NCBI GenBank assembly: GCA_008477525.1
Contig: SPDT01000013.1
Coordinates: 1,659,501-1,723,500 of the forward strand
Origin: Hypomyces perniciosus
Lineage: Eukaryota > Ascomycota > Sordariomycetes > Hypocreales > Hypocreaceae
Reading direction: 5' to 3'
DNA: 64,000 nt
Shown here piece after piece: positions 8,838 to 47,799 of the stretch; position 1 is the first letter of the stretch, and each line of letters starts with the position of its first letter. A program made the translations under genes and the position numbers. The notes beneath the pieces were generated by a model. It saw nothing but the letters and a program-made list of their open reading frames with translations, was not told the DNA's origin and ran no database searches.

Positions 8838-9099
8838 TGTTGGGTTGAGCAGGCCGGGGCCCTACCGCCTGTAAGCGCTAGGGAGCTCTTATCTCCTTTA
8901 TAAGGAGATACGAGCTGATATACACATCGCGTAAGCGATGTGTCAGACTGTGCAGACGCTTACAGCGCCTATATACCGCTTCTTCTTTGTATTAGCTATA
9001 TATATATAGCGAGGCCACTACGGTATATTCTCTTTTATAGAACTAAGCTTCGTTCATTCTCTCTCTATGCTCTACATAGCTGTGCCGCGCTCCGCCACA
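8838..9099 (+). mobile_element. Solo LTR (family 1, copy A), 262 bp
   Basis: Begins TGTTGGG and ends CCGCCACA (TG...CA), flanked on both sides by the 5-bp duplication TTTAT (8833-8837 and 9100-9104). It is homologous, in inverted orientation, to the LTR at 36580-44051; shared blocks include AGGCCGGGGCCCTACCGC and AGCTGTGCCGCGCTCCG. No internal retrotransposon sequence is present, so it is the product of LTR-LTR recombination. Confidence 0.85.
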
Positions 9100-23153: not shown

Positions 23154-23599
23154 AAGGGGAGTGGAACAGTATGTGGGACCTGTGCCTAGGGCTACACTAG
23201 TGTATAGAAGTCAATTTTAGGTGGTCTGTGTCTGTGCCCAAAAGATTAGAAAATTTTCTCACAGTAAGAAGAGCTCTGTTGTCAATGCAGAGAGTATAAC
23301 CAGGCTTAAATAGACTAAATTTAGAGAGGACAAATCCACACATGATCTAAGGTAGTTTCGGTTGACGGCACGGCAATAATAGTAGTACCCAGCTAGCAGA
23401 TAAACTAATGGTTTAGTCATTATGGTCGTTTTGTGGATTAATACCGTCCGTTACGTTACACAATGATTTACCAAATACTTAGGGGTCTGAAAGTCGACCA
23501 CTTTCTCGTGCATATGTTGTATTCATGGGGAGCAGTTAAACCGAACTTTGACATAAACCCGCCCATAGGGCACCCATCAACTATTCAGCCATAAATCGT
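23154..23599. other. Convergent intergenic region between P450 B and P450 C
   Basis: 446 bp of 3' flank for two convergent genes. No gene or repeat recognised. Confidence 0.5.
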
Positions 23600-25555
23600 C
23601 TACTGCGCAAATTTGCCCGTATCTGAAACTACCTTGATGCGAATTCCTGGACTGGCCGGACTAGGTTCACCCAGGAAACAATCCCGAACGTAGTCGATGT
23701 CACGTCCACGATATGTCTCAAAAAGCGCCAGGTCGAATCGGCAAAGGAGCGTCGCGAGGGTGATATACATCTCTGCATATGCAAAACTATCGAAAATCGT
23801 TAGATAAACACTTGAAACAGAATACGGGGGCCATCTTCCGTACTCCATGCCCTGACACATTCGGGTTCCCTTGCCAAATGCAACAAAGGAGCGGTTGGCT
23901 CGCTCAGTCGGGTTAAACCAACGTTCTGGGTCAAATTTCAGTGGGTGGGGATAAATAGTTGGATCGTGGAGAATGTCTGGATGGCTCATGCTAACAGGTG
24001 TCTAGGCAGAGCAGAGTTAGTGTCAAATAATTACTCGCATAGTCTAAAAGTTTATTGTGGCTCACCTGGGCTGGAATGACCCAGTTTTGATACGCAAGTT
24101 CTTTGTTTGACACTAGGGGCAATCTGGATGTTGTTACAGCCCTAAGTCGAAGAGACTCTCGGACAGAAGCCGCCTAGGATGTGCGATAAGTGTCAAGTCC
24201 AGTCATTTAGTGATTGGGAAGTCATCCTCACCAGCCATGGTAATTTTTCCAAGGTTCTCAGATCCGGCACTTGGTCATTATCACCCGCGGCTTCCAGTAT
24301 CTCACCCTGGACTTTCTGTAGAATCTCTGGATTTTCAAGAAGGTGGAAGATTGTATGAGCCAGGAGACGAGCAGTAGTTTCGCCTCCAGCGAATAGCATT
24401 GTTGCTCCTTCTTGCTGTAAACAAATTGCATTCTTTTCATGGGGTGGGAGTGAGCTTCGTTCAATTGCATGAAAGAGAGTTTTGGGTCGCTGCAGGCTAA
24501 TCTTGGCACCGGAATCGCTCTCAGGTTTCTGCGGTGGCTGGTGTTCTTTAGTTGAAATGTAGTCCGCGACCATGCTTGCCATTGTCTTGGTTCATGTCAG
24601 ATTCACATGAAGTTGAGTTGAATATTGAGAGGTCTCACCGTATGAACTCCAAGAAGTCTTGATACATCCGGCAACATGTGGGAAAGGAATGAGTGTGGTA
24701 ATGATCTCACAATAGCAAGAGTCCAAGGGAATTGCTTGATAAAAGGAGTTGCGGCAGCCACTGACTGCATAGCGTTTCTCCAGCTTTGAGCCGCACCAGG
24801 ATCACTCATCAAGTCAGACTCTTTATCGAATGCATAATGATAAAGAGTATCCGTGGTGAAAGCAAGTAAAACCGTGTCTAGTTGGACTGGCTTACCCTCT
24901 TCCAAGGACTCCTTGAATCTGCCCGCCAATTGATTAACGTGTTGTCGAATCAAACCCTCCCCGTCTGCAAGGAGAGCCCGTTTCGAGAACAAAGGTGCAT
25001 TGGCAGCCCTTCTCAAGCGATGGATATCATGTTCGATCGTCCCATGGCCTAAATGGCAACGAGTATTAGCTACACAGAATTCCTTAGCAAACAAAGGGTA
25101 GAAAGATGCTTACTTCCGAGGGGTAATCCCGCCATGCGAGCAGCGGGCGGATACTTGTCACGATGAGTTGGATTTGGGGCATAGAGAGTGTCCAGCCATA
25201 AAGGATCACGAATATGAATCTCATCTGGATTGATGCGAACAATAGGGCCTATACAATCTTTAATTATCGACAACCATGCGTGCATGTAGAAAGGATACAT
25301 ACCATACTGATCATGCATACGATCTATCTCTTTTGCAAATTGTCCCCCGGGACTCTTCAACAAGTCGTAGTAGCACTCGTACCATTTTGTGATTGTGGCC
25401 AATTTTGGCCCCGGAAATCGTGACAATGGGTGGAAAGCGAGACGGTAGATGACGACCCAACCTATCATCAAGCAAAATATGCCCAAGACATACAACGCTG
25501 CTTCCCGCAAAGTGACTGAGCATATATGCTCAATCACAATTGCCGTAGAGAGCAT
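23600..25555 (-). CDS. Cytochrome P450 (C), intact, seven exons
   Basis: P450 monooxygenase next in line to the terpene synthase, hence a likely tailoring oxidase. Exons 25555-25303, 25248-25114, 25048-24639, 24585-24232, 24173-24066, 24001-23844 and 23786-23600 join to 534 aa. An N-terminal anchor ([18 protein letters not shown]) is followed by [11 protein letters not shown], then the typical [15 protein letters not shown] block (C-helix), the I-helix [15 protein letters not shown], ExxR in RESLRLR, FDPERWF, and the haem loop [11 protein letters not shown]. Intron lengths are about 50-75 nt. The first intron is 54 nt and stays open in frame, so an unspliced read would look coding. Its 5' end points at the transposon block and, beyond it, at the divergent terpene synthase. 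Confidence 0.88.
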
Positions 25556-25786
25556 TTTGATAGCCTTCCTTTGCCAATCTGCTTTGTGTGTAGAAAGGCG
25601 GGAGGTTGTCAGAGTTCACACTATCGCGGGTTGTGTGCCTGACACTCTAGTCTGACAACCAGACTAGATATCAAGTCTCTGACGATCAGAATGGACAACT
25701 CTCTCCTGTAAAAAATTTTCCGCACTAGCAGCTGTTAGTAGCATGTTAGTTCAGGAGCTTTTACAGGCTACAAGAAGCAGCGCAAC

Positions 25787-25948
25787 TATCACGGCACCAA
25801 ACCTGCCCTCTAATAACTCATCAGCATTACATACGCCCTCACGTAATAACTTAGTCCTACACTTTTAAACCACATTCTTATAACTTCTTGCCTTATTTCA
25901 GGCATAATAAAGATATTACCTTAACCTGCTATTCTATATATTATAATA
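25787..25948 (+). repeat. Gypsy 5' LTR (162 bp)
   Basis: Starts TATCACGGCACC (an original TG is probably now TA) and ends ACTATAATA-like. It is directly preceded by GCAAC. It is the least AT-mutated of the three LTR copies. Confidence 0.8.
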
Positions 25949-26860
25949 CTTTATGTATTTTTATAATAACTGCGCTATTACCTTTAGCTTTTAAGTTTAT
26001 TTAAAAGAAATTAATAAAGTCGCTAAGAGCCTAGTTATAATACTATAAAAAGCCTTATATTTTATAAGAAATTTACTAATTTTTAACTATAGTAAAACTT
26101 TAAGCCTAACAGCCTATATCTTTATAGTAAAAAATATACTTTAATTTAATTCTTTAACCTATATTTAATTCTTTAGCTTATATTTAATTTAAAAATATTA
26201 AACTAAAAATATAAAATATAAAAAAAGACTTAATTAAAAAGTAAAATCTATTAAGTATTTCTATAAGTAATTTGATATTTATATTATTTTAAAAGCATAT
26301 AATAATAATTATAATTTAACTTTATAGCTTTAAATATTAAAATTTAAATAATCTTTTAATATTATTTTAATTGCTTTTAAAATAAAAAATTTAATTCTTA
26401 TATAATTTTAAAATGAAAAAATTTAAAAATATTATTATTATTATAAATATGAAGTTGATTTAATATAAAATTTAAAATTAAAGTAATATAATTAATAAAG
26501 TTATTAAAATTAAAAGTAATAATGTTTTAAAGTATTAAATTAATAACTTTAAAACTAAATGTAGTATTAAAAATAAAAATATAAAAACCTAAAAAAATAT
26601 ATAAATATATCTATATATATATAATATTACATAATAATATTTATAATTTAATATAACAAGTATTTAATTATATTATAATAAAAATAAAAAGTAATAAAAC
26701 CCTTATTAAATTTTTAAATTTATCATATAAAACTTTTAACCTTTTATAATCTATTATTTAAAAGTTTAATATTTATTATATAATAACTAAATTATTTTAA
26801 AACTTTATTATTAAATTTTGTAAATTAATAGCTTAAATTAATAAAATTAATATTTAAAAG

Positions 26861-29627
26861 AATAGTGCTATTTATATAGATAAAAATTGCTATTTATATA
26901 GATAGTCTGTGCGCCACCCACAAAAATCTCCCTATAGCTCTTTATACTCTGCAACTTAAACTATAGCAATAATACTATTACAGTAATATTATTAGCGCCG
27001 TTATAATAATAGATATCCCTGTTAACCTTTTATTAATTTAATCTGAAAAGATAACTGGCTTTAATTTTATTAAACGCCTTAATTTTAATAGTGAAAACTA
27101 TAGCCAGCTGCAGTTGCCTTTAAAGCTGCTAGATTTGCCTGAATTTAACTATGAAATCCTACTTCCACTATTATCTTTTTTATTTAATTCTTTTAGTAAC
27201 TTAATTTCTTTTTTACAGGATTTCTTTCTCAGTAGTAGCGCACCTATTATTATTAGGAATAGCTCCTCGCCTTACGAGGTAAACGGAACTATAATTAAGA
27301 TATACTATAACCTTTATTGCAATTATTTTAAAAAGCCGACTTTTATAAATATTAGTATATAAAAGCTATTAACGCAAAAGATTAACTGCCCCTTTAAATT
27401 AATAGCAATAGCGACAAAACGATTTAACTAAAAGTAATCTTATTGCATTAACTGCTATTTATATAATTACCCCTTATTTTTTAACCTTTTTGCCTATATT
27501 ATACATTATCAGCAAATTTAAAACTAGTGTATATTTAAGTGTAACCTCTTTAAGTATAAAGCACTTCCTGCCTATAAAATAACTAATATTATTAAAGATT
27601 TAAATCCTGCCAATTATATATTCTTTTATTAAAAAGATATTTATTATAACTGTTAAAAGATCTATAAAGAAGGTTTTAAGGGCTGTACAGCAATTTAAAT
27701 TTAGATTAAATACCTTTAAGATTGTTATTTTTATTACTATAATCAGTTTAGTCCTAATAATAAAATTAAAGGCGTTTTCTGGATATATCTATAGTATAAG
27801 ATAATATAGAAGCGGTTCCTTAAAGTATTAGGATTTAATAATATATATAAAACTAATAGATTTAATATATATCTATTCTAAGCAACTAGAATTACTAATG
27901 AGAAGTTTATCGCTAATTTTGCTTTTAGCTTTATTAATATAGAAAAGGAAGATGGCTTTTAATGGCTTTATAAGCAGTGAGATTTGCTCTGCACTGTAAT
28001 TGGCGCCCTAGCTTTAATTATTGCAATTATAGATAAAGAGCAGGCCTTTAAAAATACATTTAGGCGTGTTTTTCTGGATATATAATAGTAGCTTTATATA
28101 TATTATATTAATGCTAATATTAAAGCTAACATTAAATTATAGTAGAAGAAGCTAGGGAATAATAATAATAATATAGATAATAATAATGATAATAATGTTA
28201 TTGGCTGTAATGTAAGATAATGCTAAGTAAGGCATTTTAAGCTTTACTTTAACTAAGTGCAAGTATAGTTTTAATAGTATATATAAAGTATAGAAGCGCG
28301 TAATTTATATTGATAAGGAAGTTAATTTTAAGTTAATTTAGGCTGCGATAAGGTTAGTATATAATCGTATATAGGCATATATCTTATACTATATTTCTTG
28401 CAAATATATACCCTTTTAACTTTAATAGGCTTATTGCTATATTAAGCAATACTGCAATTTTAGCTAATAGGTTAATAGTTTAGTTAAAATAGCCTATAAG
28501 GATATAAAGATTTATTTAGTTTTAAATACTAGTAACCTTTTATATCTTTATATAATACTGCTATAAATAATTTAAAAGAAAAAGTAAGACTATATTTAGA
28601 AAGCTGCCTTTATATAGATGCATTAATATATTAATTTTATAATATAGTAATAGTAATTTAGCGAGATTGCAATATATATTAGTTATATAGCTATTAACCT
28701 CTTTACCTAGTAATATTAAATTACTGTTATTGCTTTACTTATATAAAGAGAGCTAAAGCTGCTTTAACTTTATTATAGCACTTTTATACAATAATATACT
28801 TTACTGTATAGTTATTTTATCTTTTAAAGGCTTGAAGCTACTGAGCCTTTAAATAAATATAATATATATCCGCGATAGTGGCTTATAAAGCTTTTAATAA
28901 GTCTGCTATTATTTTATATAGGGAATCCTATTAATAGTTATATGTATTAGGATCTAGATAAACTGCTCTTTTATATCTAAGACCTTAATATTATTTAAAA
29001 TCTTTATAAAAGACCCCGATTACTGAATAATAGGAAACTGCTTATGCCAGTTATACTTTAAGCTGTTAATAGTAGTAATAATAGTAGCGGGGATAGTATT
29101 AGTTTTATATAATAGATTTAATAGATTTAATAACCTTAATAGTTACAGTAATTATAGAGAGGATAAAGGCGACCTAAAGGGCGACCTAGGGGGTGACCGC
29201 CTAGATGCTAATTAGACTTTAATATTTAGCGAGCCCCTTTATAATTTAAGATAAATAGCTTTATTAGTTTATAGTAGATGCTATAAAGCTTTAGATTATT
29301 ATTTTAGCGTTTTAGGGGCTACAGAGGCTTGCGGGTCGCTAAAATATTGTAATAATAAAGCCGTATTTTAGCTATAGCTTTAGCTAGAATTAAAGAGGGG
29401 ATTAATGACATTATGCCAATTATATAGCCGGGAGAATAGTTAGCCTTTATATAGGTGGATAAAGGGGATAATGAAGATTTGTGATTTAAAGTAATCTGAT
29501 ATACTGTAAATAGCTGTTATTTAAAGAATTAAATTGTAGAGTGTAAGGAGCTATAGGGAGATTTTTGCAGGTGGCGCATAGACTATCTGTATAAATAGCA
29601 ATTTTTATCTGTATGAATAGCACTACT
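26861..29627 (+). mobile_element. Mutator-like element (MULE), full-size relic, 2.77 kb
   Basis: Terminal inverted repeats of about 95 bp. Left starts AATAGTGCTATTTATATAG and right, reversed, AGTAGTGCTATTCATACAG; both continue through GATAGTCT(G/A)TGCGCCACC to TCTCCCTATAGCTC. It is flanked by TATTTAAAA (26851-26859 and 29628-29636), a 9-bp duplication (10 bp with one G/A difference). Long TIRs, a 9-10-bp TSD and a MULE-type transposase inside agree. It is inserted in the gypsy element. Confidence 0.8.
27690..28170 (+). pseudogene. Degraded MULE transposase core
   Basis: One frame reads, with several stops, LGFNNIYKTNRFN, then ITNEKFIANFAF, IEKEDGF*WL, IIDKEQAFKN and FRRVFLD, ending near INANIKAN. 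This is the order of the MULE DDE domain: first catalytic Asp block in (D/N)NTYKTNRF, second Asp in TDKEQA, and the C-x2-H block. The first catalytic Asp position reads Asn (a G-to-A change), Trp codons read as stops, and the Cys-His positions are Tyr, all as RIP would produce. Confidence 0.7.
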
Positions 29628-30630
29628 TATTTAAAAAATTAATATTTTTTATTTTAATATATTTAAAAATATAATTATTACTTTTATTAATAAAAGTAAT
29701 AAACGTATAAGTAAAAATTATTTATTTATTTAAAGAACTGTTAATTAAAAAGTATATAATAATTTTAAAAAATAAATTTATTATATTAAATTTAAACGTA
29801 CTTGTAAATTTAGAAAAGTTAAATAGTAATTATATTAAGCAAAAAAGTTTACTTTAAAAGAAATTAAACCTTTTAAAGTATAAAAATATATAGAATTTTA
29901 TATAATTAAATATTATATTTTTTATTTTATAATATAAAAAAATATTAATAATTTTATAATTTATATTATTATCATGATAGTTAATATATAGTTAATATAT
30001 AGTTAATAATTATATAAAAAAATAAAAAGTTAATAGTATAAAACTTTAAATTTTATAGAAATATACTAATAGCTATATAAAATATAAAATATATTACAAT
30101 AATAATATTATGATACTTTAAAGTAAACTATATACTTTAAGTTAAAGTAAAAGTATATTAATATTATAAATTTTAATTTTTTAATTTTTATAATATTAAT
30201 ATTTTTTAGCTTAAAGAAATAATTTATTATACGATAAAAAACCTATTTTGATATTATATTAATAAACCTAACTTTATTAAAAAATTAATTACTTTTAATC
30301 ATGTACTTATTTATAAAGATATAACCTTTAATATAAAGAATTTCAAAAAAGTAATTTTTTAATAATATTATATTAAAAAGTATAACAAAATGTTAAAATA
30401 GTTTATAAACTTAATACCTTTATAAATATAATAGATTATTATTAATCATAAACTATTAATTTTAAATTATAAATAATAACTTATTATTTATTTATATTAT
30501 TTTATTTTTAAGATATTTATTAATAATTATATTAACTTTTATTAATAATAGCTATTTAATATAAAACTTTATAAATTAATACTTTCTTTAAAAGTTTTAA
30601 AATTTTAATATTATAATTATTTAAATTAAA

Positions 30631-31044
30631 AGTAATGCTATTCACACAGATAAAAATTGCTATTCGCACAGATAGTCTATACACCACCCGCGACAATCTC
30701 CCCGCAGCTCCGTACACTATATACCTAAAATACTACTACACTAATAGGTAGTACAACAATACATCAAATAACAGGTCTTCAGTATCCCTTCTATCTGCTC
30801 TATATAAAATCTCCCTAGGCCAACTAGTCTTCTAGCTGTATAGTCGCTACAATTTCACTAAACTCGTCTTTAATCCCTAGGTCACCCTTTCCCTCTCCCT
30901 GTGACTGCTGTATTGGTTATATAACTGTTGTATATATTGTGTAATATCAACTCTGTCTTTACTGCTGCTGCTATTAGAGATTTTTAGTAGCGCATAGACC
31001 ATCTATACGAACAGCAAACTTTATCTGTGTAAATAGCATTACTA
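30631..31044. mobile_element. Non-autonomous MULE, 414 bp (copy 2)
   Basis: Same TIR family as the 2.77-kb MULE: AGTAATGCTATTCACACAG, then GATAGTCTATACACCACC at the left and its inverted match at the right. Flanked by TAAATTAAA (30622-30630 and 31045-31053). The interior has no transposase and is much less AT-rich than the surrounding gypsy sequence. Confidence 0.8.
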
Positions 31045-32636
31045 TAAATTAAAAAGCTATATTTTAATTTATAATAAAATAATAGTATAGTTTATTAATT
31101 ATATAATTTTAAATATAAAAATATAAAAGTATAAAAAATTATATGGATTTTTTATTATTAATCTTTTAAATTAAAGCCCCTTATTTTTAAAAAGATTATA
31201 GCTATAATAATATAATTTTAATATGAACTAGCCTATATTAACAGTTACTTTTAATTTATAATATAATTTAATAAACTATTACTTTTAAACCTATACTGTA
31301 TTAATAATTCTTAATTTAATAATTATTTTACATAACATTAATATTTTAAATAAACCTTTAAAGTTAATATTTTATATTATTAATAAAAAGCAAAATAGAA
31401 TATAAAAGAGGATAAAAAAAAGGTTAAAAAGAAAATTAAGTGTTGAGCTTATATTAAAAATATATTAAAGGAAATAATGCTTTAATATAAAAAAAGGGAT
31501 TTATATATTAACTTTATATAAATATTAAAGTAAAATTATTACTATGTTTATTAATTTAATAACTATAAAGGATTCAAAATTAAAGTATCACTAATATTAA
31601 ATAAGCCTTTAATATTAATTTTAATAATATTTATGATTAATAAGTATTAATGTTTATATTAATAAAATTTAATGTAGTTTTTTAAATTAAATATATTAAT
31701 ATTTAAGCAACTTATACTAGTAATATTATATAAGTGATTTAATTTAATAATCATTTTAATAATTATTATAATATTATTTATTTAATATATAAAATTAATT
31801 GAAATGAATTTAATAAAGGAGATATAAAAGTAAAATTAAAATTAATATAAAATAATATTTAAAAGAAACTTTTTTATTAATTATAAAATAAAATTATTAA
31901 CTTTTCTTTATAATTAATAAATAAATTTCTTTTTAATAAATTATAAAATTAAACTTTTATTAAAGAAAAAACAATTATATTAAACAAACAATTTAATATT
32001 ATTACATAAACTTTAAATTATATAAAAATAATTAAATAAAAGCCTAATTCAAGGATTTATTAAATAGTTTTAATAAAATATATTATTTTTTTACTTTTCA
32101 TTATAAAATTGAAAAAAAGTATTTATATTTATTAAAGTTATTAAAGCTTTAATGATATTTGAATTTATTTAATTATGTAACAGGAATATTAATGATATAT
32201 ATAAAAAGTTATAAATTAATTAATCAATATAAACTTTTAAATTAATATTAAAAAATATAAATTAAAAATAATGAAATTAAAATAAACTTTTAAAGAAAAT
32301 AACTATAATTATAAATTAAAAGAAACCGTTAAACTTATATAAACCTTAATACTTTTAAGCTTTATAAATTTTTATTAATAGTTTATTAAAGACTTTTTTA
32401 ATATTTATAAACCTTTAAATAATTTATTAAAGAAAAATATATTATAGAATTAAATAAAGCTTTATATTACTGCATTTAACTATGTTAAAACTTAATTTAT
32501 AACTGCTTTAATCTTTACTTTTTGTAATTATAATAAAAGAATAATCTTAAAAATAAATACTTTAAATTAAATATTTAATAGTATTTCCTTTTAATATAAT
32601 AAACATAATATTTTGTAATTAATAATTTATTTTTTA

Positions 32637-32787
32637 TTAAAGTATTTATTTATTAAATATAATTATAAAATTTATAATAAAAACTTATTAATTATTATTA
32701 AATTATTAGAAAATAATACTTTAAACTTTAAAGTATAAAGAATAAATTTAAAATTATTATCAACTATAAAAACTTAAAATACTGTAT
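32637..32787 (+). pseudogene. Degraded gypsy RNase H segment
   Basis: The frame reads KYNYKIYNKNLLIIIKLLEN, then LKLLSTIKT*NTV after a stop. This matches the gypsy RNase H block NYxIYDKELLAII...LTDHKNLxYF, with Asp to Asn, His to Tyr or Ile type losses and stops. Confidence 0.65.
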
Positions 32788-34310
32788 AACTATTAGAGTA
32801 TTAAATTAAAAATAAATTAAAATAATAATTAATGAAAAAAAAGAAAGCTTTACACTTAAAAAACTGCTTTAATTTTTATATTTATATTAATATTATATAA
32901 AATATAAATAATAAAAGTTTATTTACTATAAGAATTAATATTTTCATTTTAAACTTAGAAGTATTAATTAATAAAATAATTAATAAAGTTTCTAAAATAT
33001 TAAATATAGTGAATATTATAATATAAGCGCTTTAAAGTTTAATTATTTAAGAATAATTTAAAAGTATTTAAAATAACTTAAAGGCGGTAATATAAGACTT
33101 TTAAATCGATAGTAATTAAATATATTATTAAAGATAACTTTAACTTTTATTAATAAATAAAATAAAGATATAAATAATATATTAAATATACTGTGTTAAA
33201 TTAAAAAGATATTTAAAATAAATAAAAATATTAAACTTTTTTAATTATATATATTAATAATTATAAATATTAATTAATTAATACTTTTATTAAAAGTTAT
33301 AATTGATATTCTTTAAAGAAAGTTAAATAAATCTACTTTTTTAAGATTTTTAAAACTAGTATTTATACTATTTTAAACTTAAAGTAATATTTTAATAAAT
33401 TATATTATATTATTACTTAATTATGATTAATAAAGTTTAATTTATAAGAATATCTTTATAATACTATATTATTTAATAGAAATATACTATTTTATTATGA
33501 TTTATATATTTAATATTAAAAAACTTATTAATATTTTTATTTTATATATTTATATTTTATATAAAGCTTTAAAAATAATTATATTCAATTAAAGTATTTA
33601 GTTTATATTTAAATTTAAAACGTAATTATTGTAATAGTTTAAAATCTACTTTAAATATTCTTTAGCCTATGATTTAAAAATTAATAATTAAATTAAATAA
33701 TTAAATATAAAGCTAACGTAATATTGTAGGAAGTTTATAAATTTGTATTAAAATAATTAAATATTTAAAATAATAAAAGTTTTATTATTTTCTACAAATT
33801 ATAGTTTCTACTTATATTTAAAAGTTAAGCCTTTTAACCTTTACCTGCTAAATTTAGTTACTGCTTAAAAGTAAAGTTTCTATAAAGTGAATACTATAGT
33901 TAAATATTTTAAATAAATCTTAAATTAATTAAAAGCCTTTATAGTATAATTAATTGTTTAATATAAAGCGATTGTTAATATATTAAAAAAAGATTTATAT
34001 TAATTTATAGTTAATAAAAAAGTTTACTTTAAGATTAAATACTTTGAAATAAATTATATATTAAAAGAAAAAGATAATAAATAGGTAAGCCTATATAAAA
34101 TTCTTAATATATACCTTTAAGTTTATTAACTTAAACTCTTTAACTATATTTATATTTTCTTTATATTTTATAACTCTTGTTTTAGATTATTAGTAGTTAA
34201 TAAAGTAGGCTAATATATATCTTTATTAAAATAAAATATTATAAATAAATAAAAGAATAAAAATATATAAAGCTACATCCTAAAAAGAGATAATAAAATA
34301 AATAAAGTAA

Positions 34311-34510
34311 TAAAAAAGTAGGAATTTAATAAAATCTTTAATTATTATAATAAAGATAGCCTATACTATTATATAGCCTAGAAATACTATATATTAAGCT
34401 AATAACCTGTGAAAGACTTAAAGGGATAAGATATGACTTTTTTAAAATATTATATAAAAAACCTTAATAAGCCTGGCCTGCTTGCCTAGGTTAAGAAAAG
34501 GAGGATAATT
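34311..34510 (+). pseudogene. Degraded integrase chromodomain (first tandem copy)
   Basis: With TAG where Trp is expected, the frame reads EFNKIFNYYNKDSLYYYIA, then KYY..., PVKDLKG and FLKYYIKN...KPG. This is the chromodomain order W-E-x-E-K-I-L-x10-YLVKWKGY...W-E-P...L. The second tandem unit holds the same domain near 35215-35410. Confidence 0.65.
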
Positions 34511-34632
34511 AATTAACTAAACCTGTAATATAATAGCCGTTTATAATAAAATTAAGATAATAAAAGGATTAAAATATATATAGTTTTAGAATAGCTATTT
34601 AAAGGTAAATAAAGTTTAAAAAGGGGGGGTAT

Positions 34633-34794
34633 TATTATAGCATTACGCCTATCCTTTAATAACTTATAAGTATTATATATATCCTTATATAATAACTTAA
34701 TGCTATACCTTTAAACAATATTTTTATAGCTTTTTACTTTATTTAAGGCATAGTAAAGATATTACCTTAACCTATTATTCTATATACTATAATA
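34633..34794 (+). repeat. Gypsy middle LTR (162 bp)
   Basis: Same length and sequence family as the outer LTRs. It is preceded by a G-run polypurine tract and followed by a second partial internal region. Confidence 0.8.
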
Positions 34795-35537
34795 AAAGTA
34801 AATACTATAGTTAAGTATTTTTAAGAAATCTTAAACTAATTAAAAGCCTTTATAATATAATTAATCGCTTAATATAAAGCTGCAGTTAATATATTAAAAA
34901 AGGACTTATATTCATTTATAGTTAGCGAAAGGGTATAATTAAAAATTAAATACTTTAAAATAAACTGCTTAATAAAAAAAGCGATAATAAATAAATAAAC
35001 TTATATAAAATCTTTAATATATATCTTTAAATTTATTAACTTAAACTCTTTAACTATATTTATATCTTTTTTATATTTTATAACTCTTCCTTTACACTAC
35101 TAATAGTTAATAAAGTAAATTAATAAATATACCTATTAAAATAAAATACTATTAATAAATAAAGAATAAGACTATATAGGGATAAATCCTTAAAAGAGAT
35201 AATAAAATAAATAAAATAATAGAAAAGTAAAAATTTAATAAAATCTTTTACTATAATAAAGATAGCCTATATTATTATATAGCCTAAAAATACTATACAC
35301 TAAGCTAATAACCTATAAAAGACTTAAAAAAATAAAACGCTGCGCTTTTAAAATACTATATAAAAACCTTCATAAGCCTGGCCTACCTACTTAAATTAAA
35401 AAGAGGAAGATAACTAATTAGCTGAACCTGCAATATAGTAGCCGTTTATAATAAAATTAATATAATAGGAGGATTAGAATATATATAGTCTTAAAATAGC
35501 TATTTTAAAGCAAATAAAGTTTAAAAGGGGGGGGTAT

Positions 35538-35699
35538 TATTACAGCACTAAACCTGCCCTTTAATAACTGATTAGTATTATATATGCCCTTATATAATAA
35601 CTTAGTCCTATACCTTTAAACTATATTCTTATAGCTTTTTGCCTTATTTAAGGCATAATAAAGATATTACCTTAACCCGCTATTCTATATACTATAATA
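35538..35699 (+). repeat. Gypsy 3' LTR (162 bp)
   Basis: Preceded by an eight-G polypurine tract and followed directly by the duplicated GCAAC. Confidence 0.8.
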
Positions 35700-36336
35700 G
35701 CAACAGCTATTAGGCTATCGCCAGCCTAACAGTTAAAAAATGCAGCAAAAGTATATTTAGAGAGTTAGCCTTACACTGTATTGCCTGCTTTAAACCACTG
35801 GATTTAAAGACTAAATAGCCTTAAAACTAGGCTGCTTTAGATATTAAATGCTGACAAAATCTATAGTAGGTTAAGGCTTTACTGCTTTTATTAATATCTG
35901 AAAAATAGTACTAATTGCGAGGGTTTTTCTCCTATTAAAAGAGGCTAACCCCTTTTTTTTAAGGGTTTTCCTATTTACTATAACTGCTCTTATATAGATC
36001 TTGGCTATAAAGGGATTTTAAAGGGTTATAGAGTATATAATTTAAGGTAAGGTTATAAAAGGAATTACTGGCTGGAAAAATCTTAGTTTTTCTAGGTATA
36101 TATTTATATTTATAGAGATATTTAATATAGGCTTTAGCCTATACTGCGGCTTTTGCTGCGCCTTTTAACCCGCTAATGGGAGTTAGGCTTAATAACTTTG
36201 CCTTTAAGACTATAAAATCTTAAATAGTGGTCAGATACTAGCCTAGGATGTCCTTTTGCCCTACTGGGATTAGTGGCCTTTGCCATAGGACATTAATTGC
36301 ATATCATCATCATCATCATCATCGATCAGAATGGAC

Positions 36337-36579
36337 TGTCAGAATAATCCTTGCATATTGCATCTTCTAATTCCCGGTACATTCGGGAAATAGCTTAGGG
36401 AGAAATGCCGAGGCCTCCTCTATGGCTAGTGCTTAGATCCCGCCCAGGAGGAGTAGCCTTACAGAAGTTGCAACTTATAAGTAAGGGCGTGAATCGGCTT
36501 AGATACTCGGATGGCCGGAGTGGATTACACAAAAGTCCTTGTTCAAGGATGATAATCTACGAGGTAATGAGGCAATAAG
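36337..36579. other. Surviving single-copy spacer between the two transposon nests
   Basis: 243 bp of normal base composition, uninterrupted on both sides by TSD-defined insertions. Together with 25556-25696 and 44057-44265 it would make up the original spacer between P450 C and the terpene synthase. Confidence 0.65.
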
Positions 36580-37889
36580 TGTAACGGAGCGCGGCACAGC
36601 TATGTGGAGCATAAAGAGAGTAAATGAAGCTTGATTCTATGAAAGAGAATATGCCGTAGTGGCACACATAGCTAACACAAAGAAGAAGCTGTGTGCAGGC
36701 GCTTTGTAAGCGTCTGCACAGTCTAACATATCGCTTACGCGATGTGTATGTCAGCTTGTATCTGCTTTGCAAGCAGATAAGAGCTCCCTAGCGCCAGTGT
36801 TGTGATTTTAGAAACTAAAACTAACTAGACCGACTTCTTCACTAACTAATTTAACTAATCGCGGCCCCACTAACGAACTAAACTAACTAGACCCACTGTA
36901 ATTTAGTAACGAAACTAACTAATCTAAAAATAGAAACTTTTTTATTGTATATTATATGATTATATAATTATATTAAAAATATATTAAAAATATATTAAAA
37001 ATGAATTACATATATGAAAATTATCTAAATATTAATATATTTTTTTATTATTACATAGTATTTTATATAATATTTTAAGTATTATATAAAAGTTAAAAAT
37101 TAAAAATTAAAAAATAATATTAAATTTGTTAAAAAATAAATGTATATTTTAATGTATATTAAATAAATTCTAGAAAAATCATATATAGTATAGAATATAT
37201 TTTAACTTTGATTTTGAAATTAAAAATAATAAATCTGTATTTAGAATACTATAAAATAGATTTATATTATGTAAATATAAATTTTCTTTTAATATTAATT
37301 TTTGAAAAAAAAAATATATATATTAATTTATATTAAATAAATCCTAGAAAAATCTTATTAAACGTTTCATAAATTCTGAATATTATACTAAGTTTAAAAA
37401 CAATAAACCTTTCTTTAAAATATATAAAAATAACCTAATATTATTTAAAAATAAATTTTCCTTTATTATTAATTGTTTAAAAATATAAATATATATTAAT
37501 TTAAATTAAATAAATCCTAAGAAAATATTATTAAATATATAATAAATTCTAATTATTATATTAAGTTTAAAAACAGTAAACCGTTATTTACAATATTTAG
37601 AAAAGTAATTTTATATTATTTTAATTTAAACTTTCTATTATTATTAAGTGTTTTAAAATATCTATATATATAACTTAAATAATATCAAATAAATCCTAGA
37701 AAAGTCTGATTAACTATGAAAAAATCATAATTATTATTCTAAGTTTAAAGATAATAAATCCTTATTTAAAGTATTAAAAATGGATTAATATTATTTAAAT
37801 TTAGATTTTCCTCTGCTATATTTTCTCTTTCGTTTATTTCTTTATTTAAATTTAATTTCTCTTTATTATTCATAATATTATTATAAAAT

Positions 37890-38075
37890 AATTTTAATTC
37901 TTTTAAATCCTTTGAATTTCTAATTCTTTAATACTATTAACTCTTTAATTAAATTTATATTTAAACGGTTTCTTGTATTAGTAATAATATTAAAACCTTA
38001 TAAAAACGCTCTTTTAATAAAAGCTTCTATACTAAGAATACCTAAATATTTCCTAGTTAAAATAGTTAAGTTAAA
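37890..38075 (-). pseudogene. Degraded hAT transposase C-terminal dimerisation domain
   Basis: The minus frame reads LTRKYLGILSIEA, then IKRAFL*GFNIITNTRNRLN, then IKELIVLKN and a stop. This matches the hAT dimerisation motif ARDYLxIPxTS...ERAFSxGxxIITDxRNRLxxxxIxxLxCLxxW, with Trp to stop and other transition-type changes. Confidence 0.7.
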
Positions 38076-39176
38076 AAAATCAATACTTCTTCTTTTCCAG
38101 TAATTTAAAATCGTTTCCTACATATATATATATTGTTAATAAAGAGTTATATTAAAATAAAAATGTATAAAAGTTATTTTTACCTTTTTATTGTTTAATA
38201 AAGGCTTTATTAAATATAAAGTATATTCATTTTCTTTAATTTCTTTATTAATAATAGCAATACTATTATTACTATAACTATTACTTTTCGTAATAGAATT
38301 ATATATATTGTCTATAATATTATTTAAATTATTAATATTATTTTCTATTTTAATACTATATAATTATTAGTAAATATTATATTTATATAATGTAAATAAC
38401 TTACTTATTATATTCTTCTATTAAAAGATCTTTAATACTAATTTCTAATCATTTATAATTTATATTATATAATATACTACTTTATTAAAAACGTTACATT
38501 TTATGTCTGGGATTTAATAAAATACTTAAAAAATAAGGTTTTAATTTATTAAATAAATTCTTATCTTTTTCTATTTTCTTAATTACAGGAACAGGAAAAT
38601 ACTTTTTAATTTTAAAATTCCTAAATTAATAGCTTTCTTTAAAAAAGATATAATATTCTTTATTTTCCTATAATAAATAATAAGTAGAATTCCAATAAGT
38701 AGAATTATCTATAATTTAATATTAATATATATATATATTATTAATAATTTTTAAAAAGAAATTTACTTAAAACAATAATAGTTTTTTTTACTATTATTAT
38801 TTATTTCATTATTATTTTTTCCTTTTACAATTCCCTTTTATAAAAGGCGTTTTCCTTTTATTGAATTTTTAATAATTTTAATATTTTTTCTTATTTTATT
38901 TAAAAGATCTATTATTAAATTAATAAATTAATATTAATATATAAATATCAATTATACCTCTAATCTCTTTATATTATTTAATAATATTTAAATTCTCTAT
39001 AGAATTAAAAGCATAATTTAGATTTAAAATATTATATAGTATATAATCTTCTTTTATAATATCTTTTTATTTATTTAACTTAATATGCAATAAACTAGAA
39101 ATATATACAGCTATAAAATTAATAATATATACTAAACAGTATATATATATTAGAGAATTAGAAATATTTTTATATT

Positions 39177-39604
39177 TGTCAGACCATAAATCCAGCAAAA
39201 GTAAAGCTCTATACAATCTGCATAGATAAGTGACCTTATATACTATGTGACACACCCCCCAGGTGCAATAGTCCAGATAGAGCGCCTGTATTCCCTGTAA
39301 TCCTATATAAAAGGGCAGGGCGCAGAGGACTTTTTTCCTGCTAACTTTTAACTACCATGGCTGCGGTGCCTAGATCTGGTTAAACTAGGACTTTCTTCGG
39401 CTTTATTTTAATTCCCCCGAATACATAGTCGGAACCCTAGTGTATTTTAATTCCTCCAGGACAGAATCAAACTTGCAACCTAGAGCTATGTCGGATAATT
39501 TCGCGCGAAACGATACCGGGCTTATAACTGTCAGACTATAAATCAAGCAAAAGTAAAGCTTTACACAATCTGTATAGATAAGTGACCTTATAGACTATAT
39601 AACA
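39177..39604. mobile_element. Miniature LTR retrotransposon (TRIM/SMART-like), 428 bp
   Basis: Two direct 76-bp repeats, 39177-39252 and 39529-39604, start TGTCAGAC and end in TGTGACA (left) or the mutated TATAACA (right). They enclose about 276 bp of non-coding, normally GC-composed sequence. The whole is flanked by ATATT (39172-39176 and 39605-39609). Tiny LTRs, a 5-bp TSD and no coding capacity fit a TRIM or fungal SMART. It is inserted within the hAT element. Confidence 0.8.
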
Positions 39605-40244
39605 ATATTTATAATATTTTAATAAATTTAAATAAAATATTCAATTATTAAAAGCATTATTAGTAGTAATACTATAAAGGTTAATTTAATAAAAATATAA
39701 AATATATAAATATATATAGTTTACCTTAAAATTCTATATAATTTTATAATATTATAAGATAATAATAAAGTTAAAAGGCTTTTAAATTAAAGATTTAGTA
39801 TAACTTTTTAAAGGTAAAGGCTTAAAACCTAAAAATAATTAATTCTATAAAATAGAAAATAAAGGTTTTTTAAAAGCAAATACCTATAAGTTTATAAATT
39901 AATTTAAAATTATTATTTATATAACTTATTCCAATTCCTAAATAAGAATCTTAAGTTAAAGAAACCTAAATATTAAAAGATATAAATATATAACTAATAG
40001 AATTAATATAGTTATTAATATCTAATATTAATATATTAAAATATTTTTTATATTTTTTCTAATATTAAATTTTTTATTTTCTAATAGTTTATAATATTAA
40101 AATATCTAGATTTAAAATATATATTAATCTATATAATTTTGCAATAAATAAATTATATACTATATATAAAATATATAGTTTAAGAATTAATATACCTATT
40201 ATAATAATTTAAAAGCTTTTTAAAACATTAAGAGTTTATAATAT

Positions 40245-40825
40245 TGTTAAAAAGGAGGGCTAAAAAGTAAAGATTTCAGTGTATTTGGGTAACCTTCCTA
40301 TTCTGGCTAGACCCGGAATTAGGCCCGACGCTAGGACCGAGTCCCTGGAGGAACTTTGGTGTAAGTCAGGAAATTTCTGTTATCTTCAACGATAACAATT
40401 GAGCTAGGACCAGCTACCCCGCCTACCCTAGACTCAATACAATGGCCACAATGGCTATTGTGAAAAATCTGACTAAAATGGTTTCCTGTTTGTATGGCCG
40501 TGAGTCGATTTGGACGATTTCCCATATAAATGAATTTTGCGGAAAATAGGAATGGGGCCACGAACCCAATTCTGCCGCCGCATTCCTATTGTCTAGTCGG
40601 AGGACTATTGTAGAAGACAAAGCTATTGTTCATACAATCACTTCTACACCAGCCGCACATCACTAGATATTCTATAGCTTTCTAGCTATTAGTTCAGTTA
40701 CAATTCAATTGTTCATCCATTGTTAACCCAACTAGACTCTCAGTCGTTTCCTCATTACTGCGTTGTATGCAGCTTCCTAGAAGCCATACATAAATGAGGT
40801 TCAGTATAACCTCGTTATTTTAACA
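40245..40825. mobile_element. Solo LTR (family 2), 581 bp
   Basis: Begins TGTTAAAA and ends TTTTAACA, flanked by AATAT (40240-40244 and 40826-40830). Its normal base composition stands out from the AT-rich hAT element around it, so it inserted later or was not subject to RIP. Short minus-strand open frames in it are not genes. Confidence 0.75.
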
Positions 40826-41388
40826 AATATTAAAAGAAAGTTTTTTTTATAATAAAATTTAAAATTTTAGTATTAGCTTTTTCTATATTAAATTGTATTA
40901 ATATATTATTTTAAGGTCTTTTTTTAATAGTTTTATATTTTTTTACAGGAATTATTTTCAATATTTAAATAATTGATTAATTATTTAAGATATTATGTTT
41001 TAATATAATAAGTATATTTAGATTAGATCCTAATCTATTATATATTAGTATTATTATATTAATAAATATAACGCTTAAATTTATAATATATAATTTAAGC
41101 TATTAATATAGCTTTTATTATTACTTTAAGAAGACTTAATAATAAAGCTTTCTTTCTTAAAAGAGGAATTTATAATAAATAATAAACATATTAATAAAAT
41201 AATAATATGTTTTTATAAAGACTTTAAATAAATAAGTATATATATATATATATATATATTTATATTTATCTTTATCTTTATTTGTTTAACAAAGATATTA
41301 TTTAAATAAAAATAACAAAAAATAAAAAGAAAGAAAGATAACTATTTATAATAAAATATTATAATATTATATTATTATATTATTATAG

Positions 41389-41856
41389 AGTAATGCTATT
41401 AGAACAGATAAAAAATGCTACTAGAACAGATAGTCCATGCGCACACACAGAAATTCTCCCAGCAACTTCCCTTAACATATAACTTACTCCTTTACTTTAT
41501 ACTCCATATATCGCGCTCAATTACAGCATATCCACAGCTAGCTATTCCAATATTATTATAGAGTATATTACTGTAAATAATAAGTCTTTAGCATATATTC
41601 TAGTAATTGTATAGGCGACTGCGGCTAGTCTTCAATTTCGCCATTAAAATCGAAAGAACCTCATTATCTGCAGTATCGCTATACTAGGCCAATAACAGGC
41701 TAATAGGAAATCTATCACAACATATAGAATTAGTGTTATTATTGTGATTGAAAGTGTTATAAAAGATCGAGGAATTGAAAGCTAGGAAGATTTCGGTGTA
41801 TACGCACAGACCATCTGTTCCAGTAGCAATTTTTGTCTGTTCCAACAGCATTACTT
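41389..41856. mobile_element. Non-autonomous MULE, about 467 bp (copy 3)
   Basis: TIRs AGTAATGCTATTAGAACAG...GATAGTCCATGCGC at the left, with an inverted match at the right. Flanked by TTATTATAG (41380-41388 and 41857-41865). Same family as 26861-29627 and 30631-31044, but inside the hAT element. Confidence 0.78.
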
Positions 41857-41986
41857 TTATTATAGTATTATAGTATTATAGCATTATAGTATTATAGTAT
41901 TATAGTATTATAGTATTATAGTATTATAGTATTATAGTATTATAGTATTATAGTATTATAGTATTATAGTATTATAGTATTATATT
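41857..41986. repeat. 8-bp tandem array (TATAGTAT)
   Basis: About 16 near-perfect 8-bp units starting in the right TSD of MULE copy 3. One unit carries GCAT instead of GTAT. Confidence 0.85.
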
Positions 41987-42979
41987 ATATTGTTATAGTA
42001 TAATATTATATTATTATTATAACATTATATTCTTATATTATAAAACATATATTCTTTATTAATTCCTTTTTTTTAAATTTTCAATATTATAACTATATAT
42101 ATATATATTTACATTTCAATGGATTTTATATATATTTAACTTTATTACCCTTATTTAAATACATTTAATTATAATAATCCTTTTATTTTAATAGCTCCTT
42201 ATAAATACCAACCACTTTTAAATAACTTATTATTTTATTTAATCGGATATATAAGTTATTTAAATCCTATTAAATTATATAATTATAATACATATAATAA
42301 AATTAATATTTTAGGCTTATTTATAGGCTTAGAATATTACTTTAATTAGAATAATTATGATTATTTAATTAAAGAATGAAATTTAATATTAAAATTCTTT
42401 TTTTCATTTATTGCTTTTAATATATTAAAAACTCCATTAAACCTTTTTTAATTTAATTATCTATTTAATCAAGTAAGTATATTTTCTCTCATTTAATTTA
42501 ATTTATTTTTTATTAGTATTTATATAATACTGTTTTTAAATTTAAATTTAAATTTAAATTCTTTTATTTTAATTAAATTATTGAAACATTATTTATATAT
42601 TTAAACATATTATATAATACTAATATTTTATAAAAATTCTATTTTTAGATTTCATTTATATTCTTAAGTATATTATATAATTATAATTATGAAGTCATTT
42701 ATATTAATAAAATTAAATACTTTTTAAAACTATTCTCTTTTACCCCTTACTTTATAATAAAGAAATGAAGAAAAATTCTGAAAGAACCCTATCTAATTAT
42801 TATTTATAATATAATTTATCAGAAATGTTTGGAATTATTTATAATTCTTTAAAATAAGAAAGCGTAAGAAAATCTATATAAACCCGAGTTTTTCCAGCTT
42901 TTAGTAACTAAATCTTTTCTTTTAATAATTTAAAATATTAGATTATGATTTATTTTAAAAAACTATTGCTTTTTTAGGA

Positions 42980-43510
42980 AAATGGATTCTTTATATCCTA
43001 ATCCTATTACAGAAAAACCCGAGTTTATTACTTAGTTAAACGCTTTTATTTCTTTTGAAATTCAATAAGCTTTTCCTTTACAGTAAAGTTTTTTATTATA
43101 TTATATTATTTTCATATTATATTATTAATAAAATTACTATATTAGGAAGCCCCTAATCCCTCTATTAAGCCAGATTTTAATATCTTTCTTAATAAATTCA
43201 ATCCTTTAAAAATCAATCCTTTTAACAATTTTGATCCTTCCCCTATAACTACTTAATATCCATTCAATTTTCTAAGCCCTTTTATTGTATTACCTATTAT
43301 AGTGAATATATTTTCCTTTTTGATTAATATTTATTTTAATGTTTAAATTTATTAGGAAACTTCTTCAAAAACCAAACCTCAAACCGAAATAAAGAAATTG
43401 GAAAAAAAGGGGAATAAAACTTTTAAATATAAAAATTGTAATAGGGTTTTTTTCAGTCGCAATAACTTAACTATGTATTTAAAAGTATATAATAGAATTT
43501 ATAAATAGTT
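42980..43510 (+). pseudogene. Degraded C2H2 zinc-finger gene inside the hAT element
   Basis: A plus-strand frame at 43422-43490 reads FKYKNCNRVFFSRNNL, then TMYLKVYNR. Spacing is exactly C-x2-C-x12-H-x3-H if three Tyr codons (43428, 43476, 43488) replace one Cys and two His. Each is a single RIP-type change (TGT to TAT, CAT to TAT). It is preceded by a candidate intron (from the GTGAATATATT donor at about 43301 to TTATTAG at 43361) and a Pro/Asn-rich segment (APNPSIKPDFN). It is opposite in strand to the transposase, so it may be a second gene carried by this hAT family. Low-complexity AT sequence makes the exons uncertain. Confidence 0.5.
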
Positions 43511-44056
43511 TAAATTTATAAATTCTTTTATAATAATATTTTATTTACTAACCTTTTTTATATATCTTAATAGTATATATATATTTATCTATATTTATCT
43601 ATATTTATATATACTTCTATATATTTATATAATACTTTTTAATAACTTAATAATATATTATATTTTAAAATTTTATACTATTTCATTTAACTTTATATTA
43701 ATCATATATATATTTATATATAACCTTTATTTTTCATCATTTATTTTAATTTTAATTTAATTTTTCAATACTTATAAATAATATTCCTAAAATTATATAA
43801 AAAATCCTCATATATATTTAAGATTTTTCTATATTATTTGTATATTTTAGTTAGTCTTAGTTACTAAGACCAACTAAAGAATTTATGGAGCGACCCACTA
43901 ACTAACTAAACTAACTAAAGGCCTAACTAATAACTAACTATACTAGGAAAAGTGGGCCTAGTTACTTAGTAACTAGAAACTAGGCCTAGTTAATTTCACA
44001 ACACTGCCTAGCGCTGATAAGCGGTAGGGCCCCGGCCTACTTAACCCAACAATAAG

Positions 44057-44265
44057 TTATTGGACCGAGGATATGAATACTATGCATTTGCTATCTTAAC
44101 TCTATATCAATCAGCTCGTTCGTCTAAGAAGCCTCGGTATACATGTATCAATAACTCCTGGATCACACAGCAGTCTTTGTGAACGTGGTATTCTACATCT
44201 CCCTGTTACTACTCCTGTGTCTACGACCAATCACATCTGATTTTATCATTAAATTATTCTTCAAA
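44057..44265 (+). promoter_or_regulatory. Residual promoter of the terpene synthase
   Basis: Only 209 bp remain between the transposon nest and the terpene synthase ATG. No clear TATA box. The rest of the original upstream region is displaced to 36337-36579 and 25556-25696. Confidence 0.5.
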
Positions 44266-45752
44266 ATGACGCAAGATTATAGCCAACGGGAGCAACTCCT
44301 GGCCAAAATCAGATCATGCTCGATCTCGGTTCCTAATATGCAGCCGGCTTTCACGAACTGGCCAGCTGCTGTTAATCCAGAGTACAAGAATCTAGTTCCC
44401 GTGATGGATGTCAGGATCGCCAGGTATGATGAGATGAATGAATATGGTCTTGACCAAAAACCTTTGAATACCTCGTGGCTAACATTTCTCTTGTGAAAAG
44501 CCTCTTTTCAGATCCAATCAAAGTAGCCAAGCTTCAGAGTTGTGATTTTGCCCTATTTGCGTCAACTTGGTGGCCCCGAGCGCCCTGGGATGAGCTACGG
44601 ATTCTGGCTTTTTTATCCTTGTGGCTCTTTGTGTGGGATGATGAGATCGATGAATCCACCGGAGCGCTGAGTGACAACTTTGAAGCCTCTCAACAATATC
44701 GACAAGATACCATTATTTATGTGATGCAGACGCTTGGATTGAGTCAAGAACTGGATTCCTATGTCCAGAGAAAGGTCTCAGGACCCCTGAATGCCATCAT
44801 CCGCAGTTTTGGTGTCATTGGTGAAGCATTGTTGAATGCGTACAATATTAGTAAGTTCCGCCTCGTTACTGTGGTTCTCTGATCTAACATGTTTTTAGAG
44901 CAGCGGAAGAGGTTCCTGAAAGAGATGGTGTTTTTTATGCAAATGTCGCAACTCGAGCAGCAGACGAGACTTGACGGTCGCATTCTTTCGCTAGAAGAGT
45001 ATTGGGAAATCCGGATGGGAACGAGTGCGGTGGGTGTGATTATGGCTGTGAATGAGTAAACACCCCCCCCCCCTTGCACTCCCTTGCCTCCTTGCATCCC
45101 TACATTGAAACGTACAACCGACTAATCAAAATTGAGCACAGATTCAGTGCAGGAGTCAGGATTCCTGACGCCATCATGGACCATCCAGAAATGAAAAAGA
45201 TTTGGGATGAATCCAATATCAACGTATCTATGTGCGTAGCGGAATGTGAATAAAAGTGGCCACTCACTTACAAACTCTATTATTTAGCGTTAACGACATT
45301 CTCTCATTAAGGAAGGAAATTGTAAGTCTGATATCTTGAAATCGTTATGCGTATCTATGCTAATTCATCTATCTCTAGGCTAAAGGTGCTATCGACAGCC
45401 TGATTCCTGTCCTTTGCACATACACGGAAACGCCACAGGACGCCATCGACAACGCATTGAAGTCCCTGGAAGAGTCCATTGACCGCTTTGAAACTGCTGC
45501 GGGAAGATTGCTAGACACTATTGAAGAGACTTCGACTGATAAATACAATACCTCTGAGTTCATTCAAGACTGTCGATACAACGGTTCCGGAAATCTCTAC
45601 TGGAGGTGAGTGCAATGGATTGTCTCTCTCTGTAATAGTACATCTTAATACTGTATGGAATCTAACGAGCTCAAAATAGCCTGCGTACGAAGCGGTATGG
45701 ATTGGACAGTGTCCTCAAGAACCCTGATGGTGGCTTTCTGCTGGAATTCTAG
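44266..45752 (+). CDS. Class I terpene synthase (sesquiterpene-type), intact
   Basis: Cyclises a prenyl diphosphate, most likely farnesyl diphosphate, after Mg2+-assisted loss of diphosphate; soluble. Seven exons (44266-44423, 44501-44850, 44899-45055, 45142-45231, 45288-45321, 45379-45605, 45680-45752) join to 362 aa. The aspartate-rich motif DDEID is at residues 99-103 after LWLFVW, the NSE triad NDILSLRKE at 254-262, and the RY pair at 344-345 in RTKRYGL. All are at normal spacing for fungal class I cyclases of the presilphiperfolanol-synthase-like group. The start ATG is the first in this frame after a stop. It faces the transposon block and P450 C. Product cannot be predicted from sequence. 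Confidence 0.92.
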
Positions 45753-47449: not shown

Positions 47450-47451
47450 TA

Positions 47452-47648
47452 CACCCCACAAGGATCAAATAGTGCCACGAAGTACAAGCCCCACAGTGGC
47501 GAGAGATCATCACCTAGTTTTAATACATATATTATCATATTATTGAAGTATTGCCCTTATAAAATTATATGGAAAGTACTTGGCATTTAAGCCAATCAAA
47601 TGCTCTGTATGAATGTATTTTATGGCACTATTTGATCCTTGTAGGGTG
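47452..47648. mobile_element. MITE-like element with about 28-bp inverted repeats
   Basis: Left end CACCCCACAAGGATCAAATA (continuing GTGCCA) and right end its inverted copy with one C/T difference, about 200 bp apart. The inverted repeats are flanked by TA on both sides (47450-47451, 47649-47650), as for Tc1/mariner-derived MITEs. The interior is AT-rich and non-coding. Confidence 0.65.
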
Positions 47649-47799
47649 TATTGCAGCAAACCTCAAACCTCATTCAAACTTACTACTTGGGTTTACACAA
47701 TATTCCCCTGTGCTGTATTACATGTTCCATCAACTCATTCTTTCGCAGGATAAGCAGGTACACAAAAATACCGTCTCGCAAAGACCTTGAGCACGAAAG

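Follow-up and report, generated by a model that had tools for sequence, protein, structure and literature searches.

The botrydial cluster of Botrytis cinerea is reportedly split by AT-rich transposon relics, and to our knowledge no empty site has been described for it within the same genome. In the melanin cluster of Zymoseptoria tritici, expression is lowered by a transposon island that lies upstream of Zmr1 (PMC6047131). Gene duplications between core and supernumerary chromosomes are described in two reports on Fusarium poae, and include the sesquiterpene cyclase STC4, whose core and accessory copies are 98% identical (PMC4994206, PMC8102738). Here, we describe a terpene cluster of Hypomyces perniciosus (GenBank assembly GCA_008477525.1, contig SPDT01000013.1, positions 1,659,501 to 1,723,500; this stretch of 64,000 nucleotides is referred to below as the window). 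In this cluster, the intergenic region between a cytochrome P450 gene (P450 C) and a class I terpene synthase gene has been split by transposons, and an uninterrupted copy is present elsewhere in the genome. The assembly analysed comprises 44.0 Mb in 23 contigs; the window lies on the contig labelled C14 (1659501-1723500) and the second copy on the contig labelled C9.

Once two blocks of transposons are removed from the window, three pieces are left between the divergent genes: 141 bp on the P450 side (25556..25696), 243 bp between the blocks (36337..36579) and 209 bp on the synthase side (44057..44265), 593 bp in all. On C9, these pieces are adjacent and in the same order, and form one uninterrupted intergenic region of 595 bp, bounded by the start codons of the same two genes at 1060252 (minus strand) and 1060848 (plus strand); the homologue of the first piece is C9:1060253-1060395. 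The target-site duplications (TSDs) were read from the overlapping match ends of the pieces on C9. The first, CGATCAGAATGGAC (14 bp), occurs at two sites in the window and no others, at 25683-25696, where it forms the 3' end of the first piece, and at 36323..36336; it is single in the 110 kb of C9 examined, at 1060382-1060395. The second, ATAAG (5 bp), brackets 36580-44051 with copies at 36575-36579 and 44052-44056, and is also single in C9. C9 therefore carries a homologous locus free of the inserts, with each target duplication present once. With a natural empty site available within the genome itself, we take it as shown that insertions at two sites broke up a single compact, divergent intergenic region.

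The first-pass annotation of this DNA had proposed TSD-bounded blocks, three leftover pieces of about 593 bp and an expansion of about 30-fold between two genes whose frames are still open. Its coordinates and TSDs are borne out, the expansion computes to 31.6-fold (18,710/593), and both frames are intact: the synthase is open in the C14 and C9 copies, and the P450 C exons are stop-free in both. It had also suggested looking for an empty site that joins the pieces at single TSD copies, which the same genome supplies, and had named as contrary findings pieces that are not adjacent or genes that were never neighbours; on C9, the pieces are adjacent and the genes are divergent neighbours. Of its phrase 'compact divergent promoter', the compact divergent region stands, now with two separate sites of insertion. 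The sole ground for a promoter role is the pair of divergent ATGs, which lie 595 bp apart on C9 and suggest that the region is a bidirectional promoter.

The first block (block A) was originally read as a LINE-like (long interspersed nuclear element-like) shell of 10.6 kb, and this part of the first-pass annotation needs revision. The two ends of the shell, a 5' part of 90 bp (25697..25786, plus strand) and a 3' part of about 620 bp with a (CAT)n tail (35700..36322, plus strand), are contiguous as one unit of about 690-725 bp in the eight other genomic copies examined. These copies mostly have CAT/ATT-type tails, and at least six of the eight have their own TSDs recognisable by eye. Since its ends form one such unit elsewhere, the shell is, by its sequence features (short length, a simple-repeat 3' tail and a TSD within 10-15 bp), a SINE-like (short interspersed nuclear element-like), target-primed element of about 720 bp. 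The LINE reading is ruled out; the 9.9 kb between the shell ends are a separate insertion. This is a long terminal repeat (LTR) retrotransposon of about 9.9 kb (25787..35699, plus strand), with direct terminal repeats of 162 bp (25787-25948 and 35538-35699) and a 5-bp TSD, GCAAC, at 25782-25786 and 35700-35704. It is AT-rich (GC 0.147 with its nested element excluded), has indices like those left by repeat-induced point mutation (RIP), and contains a tandem duplication of about 905 bp in its 3' part (33884..35699, plus strand). Nested within it is a DNA transposon of about 2.8 kb with terminal inverted repeats (TIRs), whose approximate limits are 26860..29628 and whose TIR arms lie at 26840-26959 and 29529-29648; this element is missing from related copies of the retrotransposon, which jump from about 26860-26874 to about 29628.

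The second block (block B), by contrast, had been described correctly as an LTR/hAT nest with a 5-bp TSD. It is a solo LTR holding a hAT-type DNA transposon. The 5' part of the LTR lies at 36580..36794 and the 3' part at 44015..44051 (both plus strand), the latter being followed by the second TSD copy. Without the hAT, this LTR measures 252 bp, has TG..CA ends, and aligns end to end with four other genomic copies at 75-88% identity. A further copy of the family lies in reverse orientation at 8833-9094. The hAT (36795..44006, 7.2 kb) has the short TIR CAGTGTTGTGA and the 8-bp TSD CCTAGCGC, with copies at 36787 (36787-36794 being also the end of the 5' LTR part) and 44007. Other repeats lie inside it, at 40239-40821, together with 174-bp repeats at 37123-37819. 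The hAT has a GC content of 0.191 and RIP-like indices, whereas the short LTR, at 0.475, is not AT-rich.

How far does the second copy extend, and could it be a product of assembly? By BLAST, window 18132..50167 is collinear with C9:1049328-1068613 and has the same orientation, apart from the two transposon blocks, which the C9 copy lacks; there are 192 differences over 13,331 aligned bases (98.56% identity). It might be argued that C9 represents a second haplotype or is chimaeric, but nothing beyond the similarity itself speaks for this. The flanks differ on both sides, window stretches 55000-57000 and 12500-18200 are single copy except for repeats and the final 69 bases, and both ends of C9 carry telomere repeats; a doubled assembly or second haplotype is thus ruled out, and we consider an artefact of any such kind extremely improbable. 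As the tested flanks are single copy, sequence comparison identifies the C9 copy as a segmental duplication. Codon differences between the copies number six synonymous and three nonsynonymous in the synthase coding sequence, five and nine, respectively, in P450 B, and five and eight in P450 C, for which C9 was compared exon by exon across an intronic insertion.

Furthermore, the two copies have been damaged in a reciprocal way. C9 holds 2.2 kb that are missing from the window at the junction 48354/48355; an open frame on C9 spans this junction, and its portion within the 2.2 kb matches PF02458. The window copy has therefore lost most of an acyltransferase gene, of which a remnant persists at 47800..48354 (plus strand) and the remainder is kept at C9:1064595-1066802. 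On the other side, the transporter gene similar to the major facilitator superfamily (MFS) is complete in the window (49159..50655, minus strand; 417-aa model, MFS_1 at 27.6 bits, below the Pfam cut-off), and its C9 copy breaks off inside the third exon, with the gene start lost. C9 also carries a 3.4-kb hAT with an 8-bp TSD at the equivalent of window 24600-24605, inside a P450 C model intron. This element differs from the hAT of block B and encodes a transposase frame of 783 aa (C9:1056224-1058572) with the domain PF05699 (E=2.5e-14). Its family has at least 40 copies in the genome, and all 40 listed are about 100% identical, a pattern that marks a recent burst. Beside the cluster copy, C9:1044421-1049030 holds a GC-rich OrsD and DEAD-helicase gene with in-frame stops, whose end falls about 300 bp short of the copy's left edge; it resembles telomere-linked helicases.

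RIP is known to leak into single-copy DNA beside repeats, where it leaves CpA-biased changes of the C-to-T type. In the 243-bp middle piece, 11 GC-to-AT changes fall on the window side and one on the C9 side; outside it, over 13,088 positions, the two sides have 60 each. Both the rate at GC sites (11/119 in the middle piece vs 60/5,978 elsewhere; Fisher p=9.4e-8) and the direction (11:1 vs 60:60; p=0.006) set the middle piece apart, and seven of the 11 changes are in CpA context (background 0.298; p=0.02). In any other 243-bp stretch, the GC-to-AT count reaches at most five. The middle piece thus combines directional C-to-T change and CpA preference with a position beside RIP-mutated repeats, and its mutations fit leakage from the flanking long elements, RIP being the probable cause. 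The effect is limited to this island between the two blocks; given the 60:60 ratio outside the middle piece, we reject RIP acting on the duplicate as a whole. The inserts on C14 arrived after the two copies had separated, and the leakage suggests that they were mutated in place.

From these comparisons we propose the following history, which we regard as the probable explanation overall. The cluster is present twice, on C14 and, truncated, on C9, both copies deriving from an ancestor in which a divergent intergenic region of about 595 bp separated P450 C from the terpene synthase. At the first site on C14, a SINE-like element arrived by target-primed integration (14-bp TSD), followed by the LTR retrotransposon within it (5-bp TSD) and then by the TIR element within the retrotransposon. 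At the second site, 243 bp away, an LTR element (5-bp TSD) was reduced to a solo LTR and invaded by a hAT (8-bp TSD). The long elements were mutated, and the mutation extended into the intervening island of 243 bp. The sequence shows each of these steps, with RIP as the presumed agent of mutation. P450 C would thus keep its proximal 141 bp and the synthase its proximal 209 bp, and a shared upstream element, now mutated, may lie about 10.6 kb from P450 C and about 7.5 kb from the synthase. Such separation and mutation would weaken joint activation on C14, and C9 would keep the compact promoter; co-regulation may have been broken or both genes silenced by AT-rich heterochromatin, as the first-pass annotation suggested. 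Because the cluster copy on C9 is uninterrupted, the compact promoter has not been lost to the organism. Weakened control is a reasonable expectation because the Z. tritici island, upstream of a cluster regulator, lowers the expression of that gene (PMC6047131).

It is also conceivable that the insertions have little effect: the 141 and 209 bp next to the genes may be enough, and both C14 genes may still be expressed, with the blocks as passive baggage. The open synthase frame, with its six synonymous and three nonsynonymous differences from C9, and the stop-free exons of P450 C are what such a situation would leave behind. However, the C14 acyltransferase is mostly deleted, a sign of a copy that is losing parts, and the middle piece is mutated, though neither amounts to lost expression. 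We judge passive baggage rather unlikely. Several points nevertheless weigh against our proposal of a split and mutated promoter. The gene models are computed predictions, and any regulator site in the middle piece is putative. The leakage claim rests on 11 changes polarised by C9 rather than by an outgroup, and the two outer pieces (1:2 and 2:0 GC-to-AT changes, window vs C9) show no clear RIP excess.

Among the cluster promoters compared, we found no common dyad of the Zn-cluster type. The motif TCTGACA occurs three times in the 593 bp and 12 times in the whole window, and is a post hoc candidate for a regulator site; the 12-mer TTGTCAGAGTTC, common to the P450 C side and the intergenic region between the MFS-like and Zn-cluster genes, is likewise a post hoc lead only. 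The positions listed for these two leads are 25606, 25651, 36337 and 50919.

The nature of C9 bears on when the two copies came to share a nucleus. C9 is a 1.36-Mb telomere-to-telomere contig, with 23 CCCTAA units in its first 600 bases and 28 TTAGGG units in its last 600. None of the 193 kinase, RRM and tRNA loci listed lies on it, where its length would predict 6.0 (P=0.0023); the sample comprises 136 kinase matches at 100 loci, 86 RRM matches at 55 loci and 38 of 62 tRNA matches kept, all among the matches listed. ARAGORN found no tRNA in 110 kb of C9, a span too small to count on its own, and no tandem run of at least two telomere units was found inside C9 between 1005 and 1115 kb. A further 39 copies of the young hAT are listed, six of which are on C9 (P=0.0012). 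C9 is thus a small chromosome poor in core genes, accessory-like in this sense and possibly dispensable. It is not supported as a RIP-free chromosome, given an AT-rich relative of the window retrotransposon at C9:1101556-1103559. In the tRNA search, matches at C8:4331-17023 had the same spacing as on the mitochondrial-like C17, and C2 had one match per about 2.9 kb.

This leaves a puzzle of timing. The inserts on C14 were RIP-mutated and the changes extended into the promoter, but RIP spared both the 19-kb segment on C9 and its counterpart on C14. One possibility is that duplication came first and both copies were in one nucleus during RIP of the C14 inserts, the cluster being spared with its partner on an accessory chromosome. 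C9 does look accessory, and F. poae offers a precedent in core-accessory duplicates free of RIP, including a sesquiterpene cyclase at 98% identity (PMC4994206, PMC8102738). However, C9 has its own AT-rich retrotransposon relative, and a 19-kb segment is far above the length limit of RIP, yet the direction outside the middle piece is 60:60; we put this order of events at somewhat below an even chance. Alternatively, the C9 copy may stem from an allele without transposons in another lineage, and may have entered this genome by a cross or by chromosome transfer once RIP had acted for the last time. Such an arrival would explain together the empty site on C9, the divergence of 1.44% spread evenly over coding and non-coding DNA, and the absence of RIP from the duplicate. 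It also agrees with the young hAT, whose near-identity among all 40 listed copies argues against any effective RIP of that family in recent times. Against it, no donor lineage is seen in this one genome. To us, later arrival is about as probable as not, and because C9 is not RIP-free, we lean slightly towards it over prior duplication.

Is the RIP machinery itself intact? The genome has two PF00145 genes, corresponding to the methyltransferases RID and DIM-2. The RID-like gene (C3:1350235-1351107, minus strand), whose product RIP requires, carries one in-frame TAG. At the same distance, tryptophan is found in 52 of the 61 listed relatives with an FSGAGG-type motif (among 120 relatives listed), and Cladobotryum and Escovopsis also have tryptophan at this site. 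In each of the eight Trichoderma entries that have the motif, the predicted protein lacks the stretch around the site, with differing gaps, as if a stop were there too. In perithecia of F. graminearum, the genes subject to A-to-I editing of UAG to UGG include the rid orthologue (PMC4817773). This makes the TAG a candidate conserved stop, removed by editing, that would link RIP to the sexual stage. Loss of RIP through this codon was considered and dropped, the relatives suggesting that it is edited or otherwise tolerated.

The genes around the split region complete the cluster. Between about 18 and 52 kb, the window reads P450 A (minus strand), P450 B (plus), P450 C (minus), the terpene synthase (plus), the acyltransferase remnant (plus), the MFS-like gene (minus) and a Zn-cluster gene, and GC drops to 10-38% per kb across about 26-44 kb. 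P450 C (23600..25555, minus strand, start codon at 25555) is a seven-exon model of 525 aa (PF00067, E=3e-50). The synthase (44266..45752, plus strand) has seven exons, 362 aa and the motifs DDEID and NDILSLRKE (PF19086, E=6e-32). We name no product for it: a 142-aa piece matches presilphiperfolan-8-beta-ol synthase weakly (E=3e-4), and NCBIfam equivalogs score far below their cut-offs. P450 A and P450 B are likewise divergent (20.4-21.4 kb), and at most about 0.9 kb of intergenic DNA lies between them. Outside the cluster, a repeat of about 250 bp at 17432-17681 separates two halves of an N-acetyltransferase gene and has more than 20 other genomic copies (75-92%), and the VPS13 stretch at the right end of the window has its top match in Trichoderma ceciliae (78% identical), in keeping with a Hypocreaceae-like fungus.

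The reciprocal losses raise one further idea. As between the two cluster copies, the acyltransferase is left only on C9 and a complete transporter and the Zn-cluster gene only on C14, and the shared synthase and oxidase stand under one compact and one split promoter. The pathway might therefore be divided between a core and an accessory-like chromosome, its final product needing both, a proposal that we think quite unlikely; if true, the product would vanish in part on loss of C9.

In summary, the kinds of event involved here are already known, namely transposon islands in metabolite clusters, RIP leakage and core-accessory duplicates, and it is the combination that is useful. The effects of transposon islands on fungal metabolite clusters are usually studied between strains, in which the whole background differs. 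In this fungus, an occupied and an empty promoter share one nucleus, and their 98.6% identical genes are separable by single-nucleotide polymorphisms, so that cis effects could be read from one RNA sample. As in RIP leakage generally, CpA-biased change lies beside RIP-mutated repeats, although here it is limited to the 243-bp promoter island. Like the reported case of the botrydial cluster, this is a terpene cluster interrupted by RIP-mutated transposon relics, in another fungus and with another synthase. The Zmr1 island is likewise a transposon insertion in the regulatory DNA of a biosynthetic cluster, but it concerns DNA upstream of a regulator gene, was compared between strains and has a demonstrated effect on expression (PMC6047131); our case concerns a divergent region between enzyme genes that is split twice. 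Finally, F. poae shares with H. perniciosus the duplication of secondary-metabolite genes between core and accessory or accessory-like chromosomes without RIP of the duplicate, and young transposons that are frequent on a small chromosome (PMC4994206, PMC8102738). H. perniciosus differs in that the duplicate is a multi-gene cluster block with an occupied and an empty promoter in one genome and reciprocal losses, on a chromosome that is not RIP-free and is accessory-like by content.

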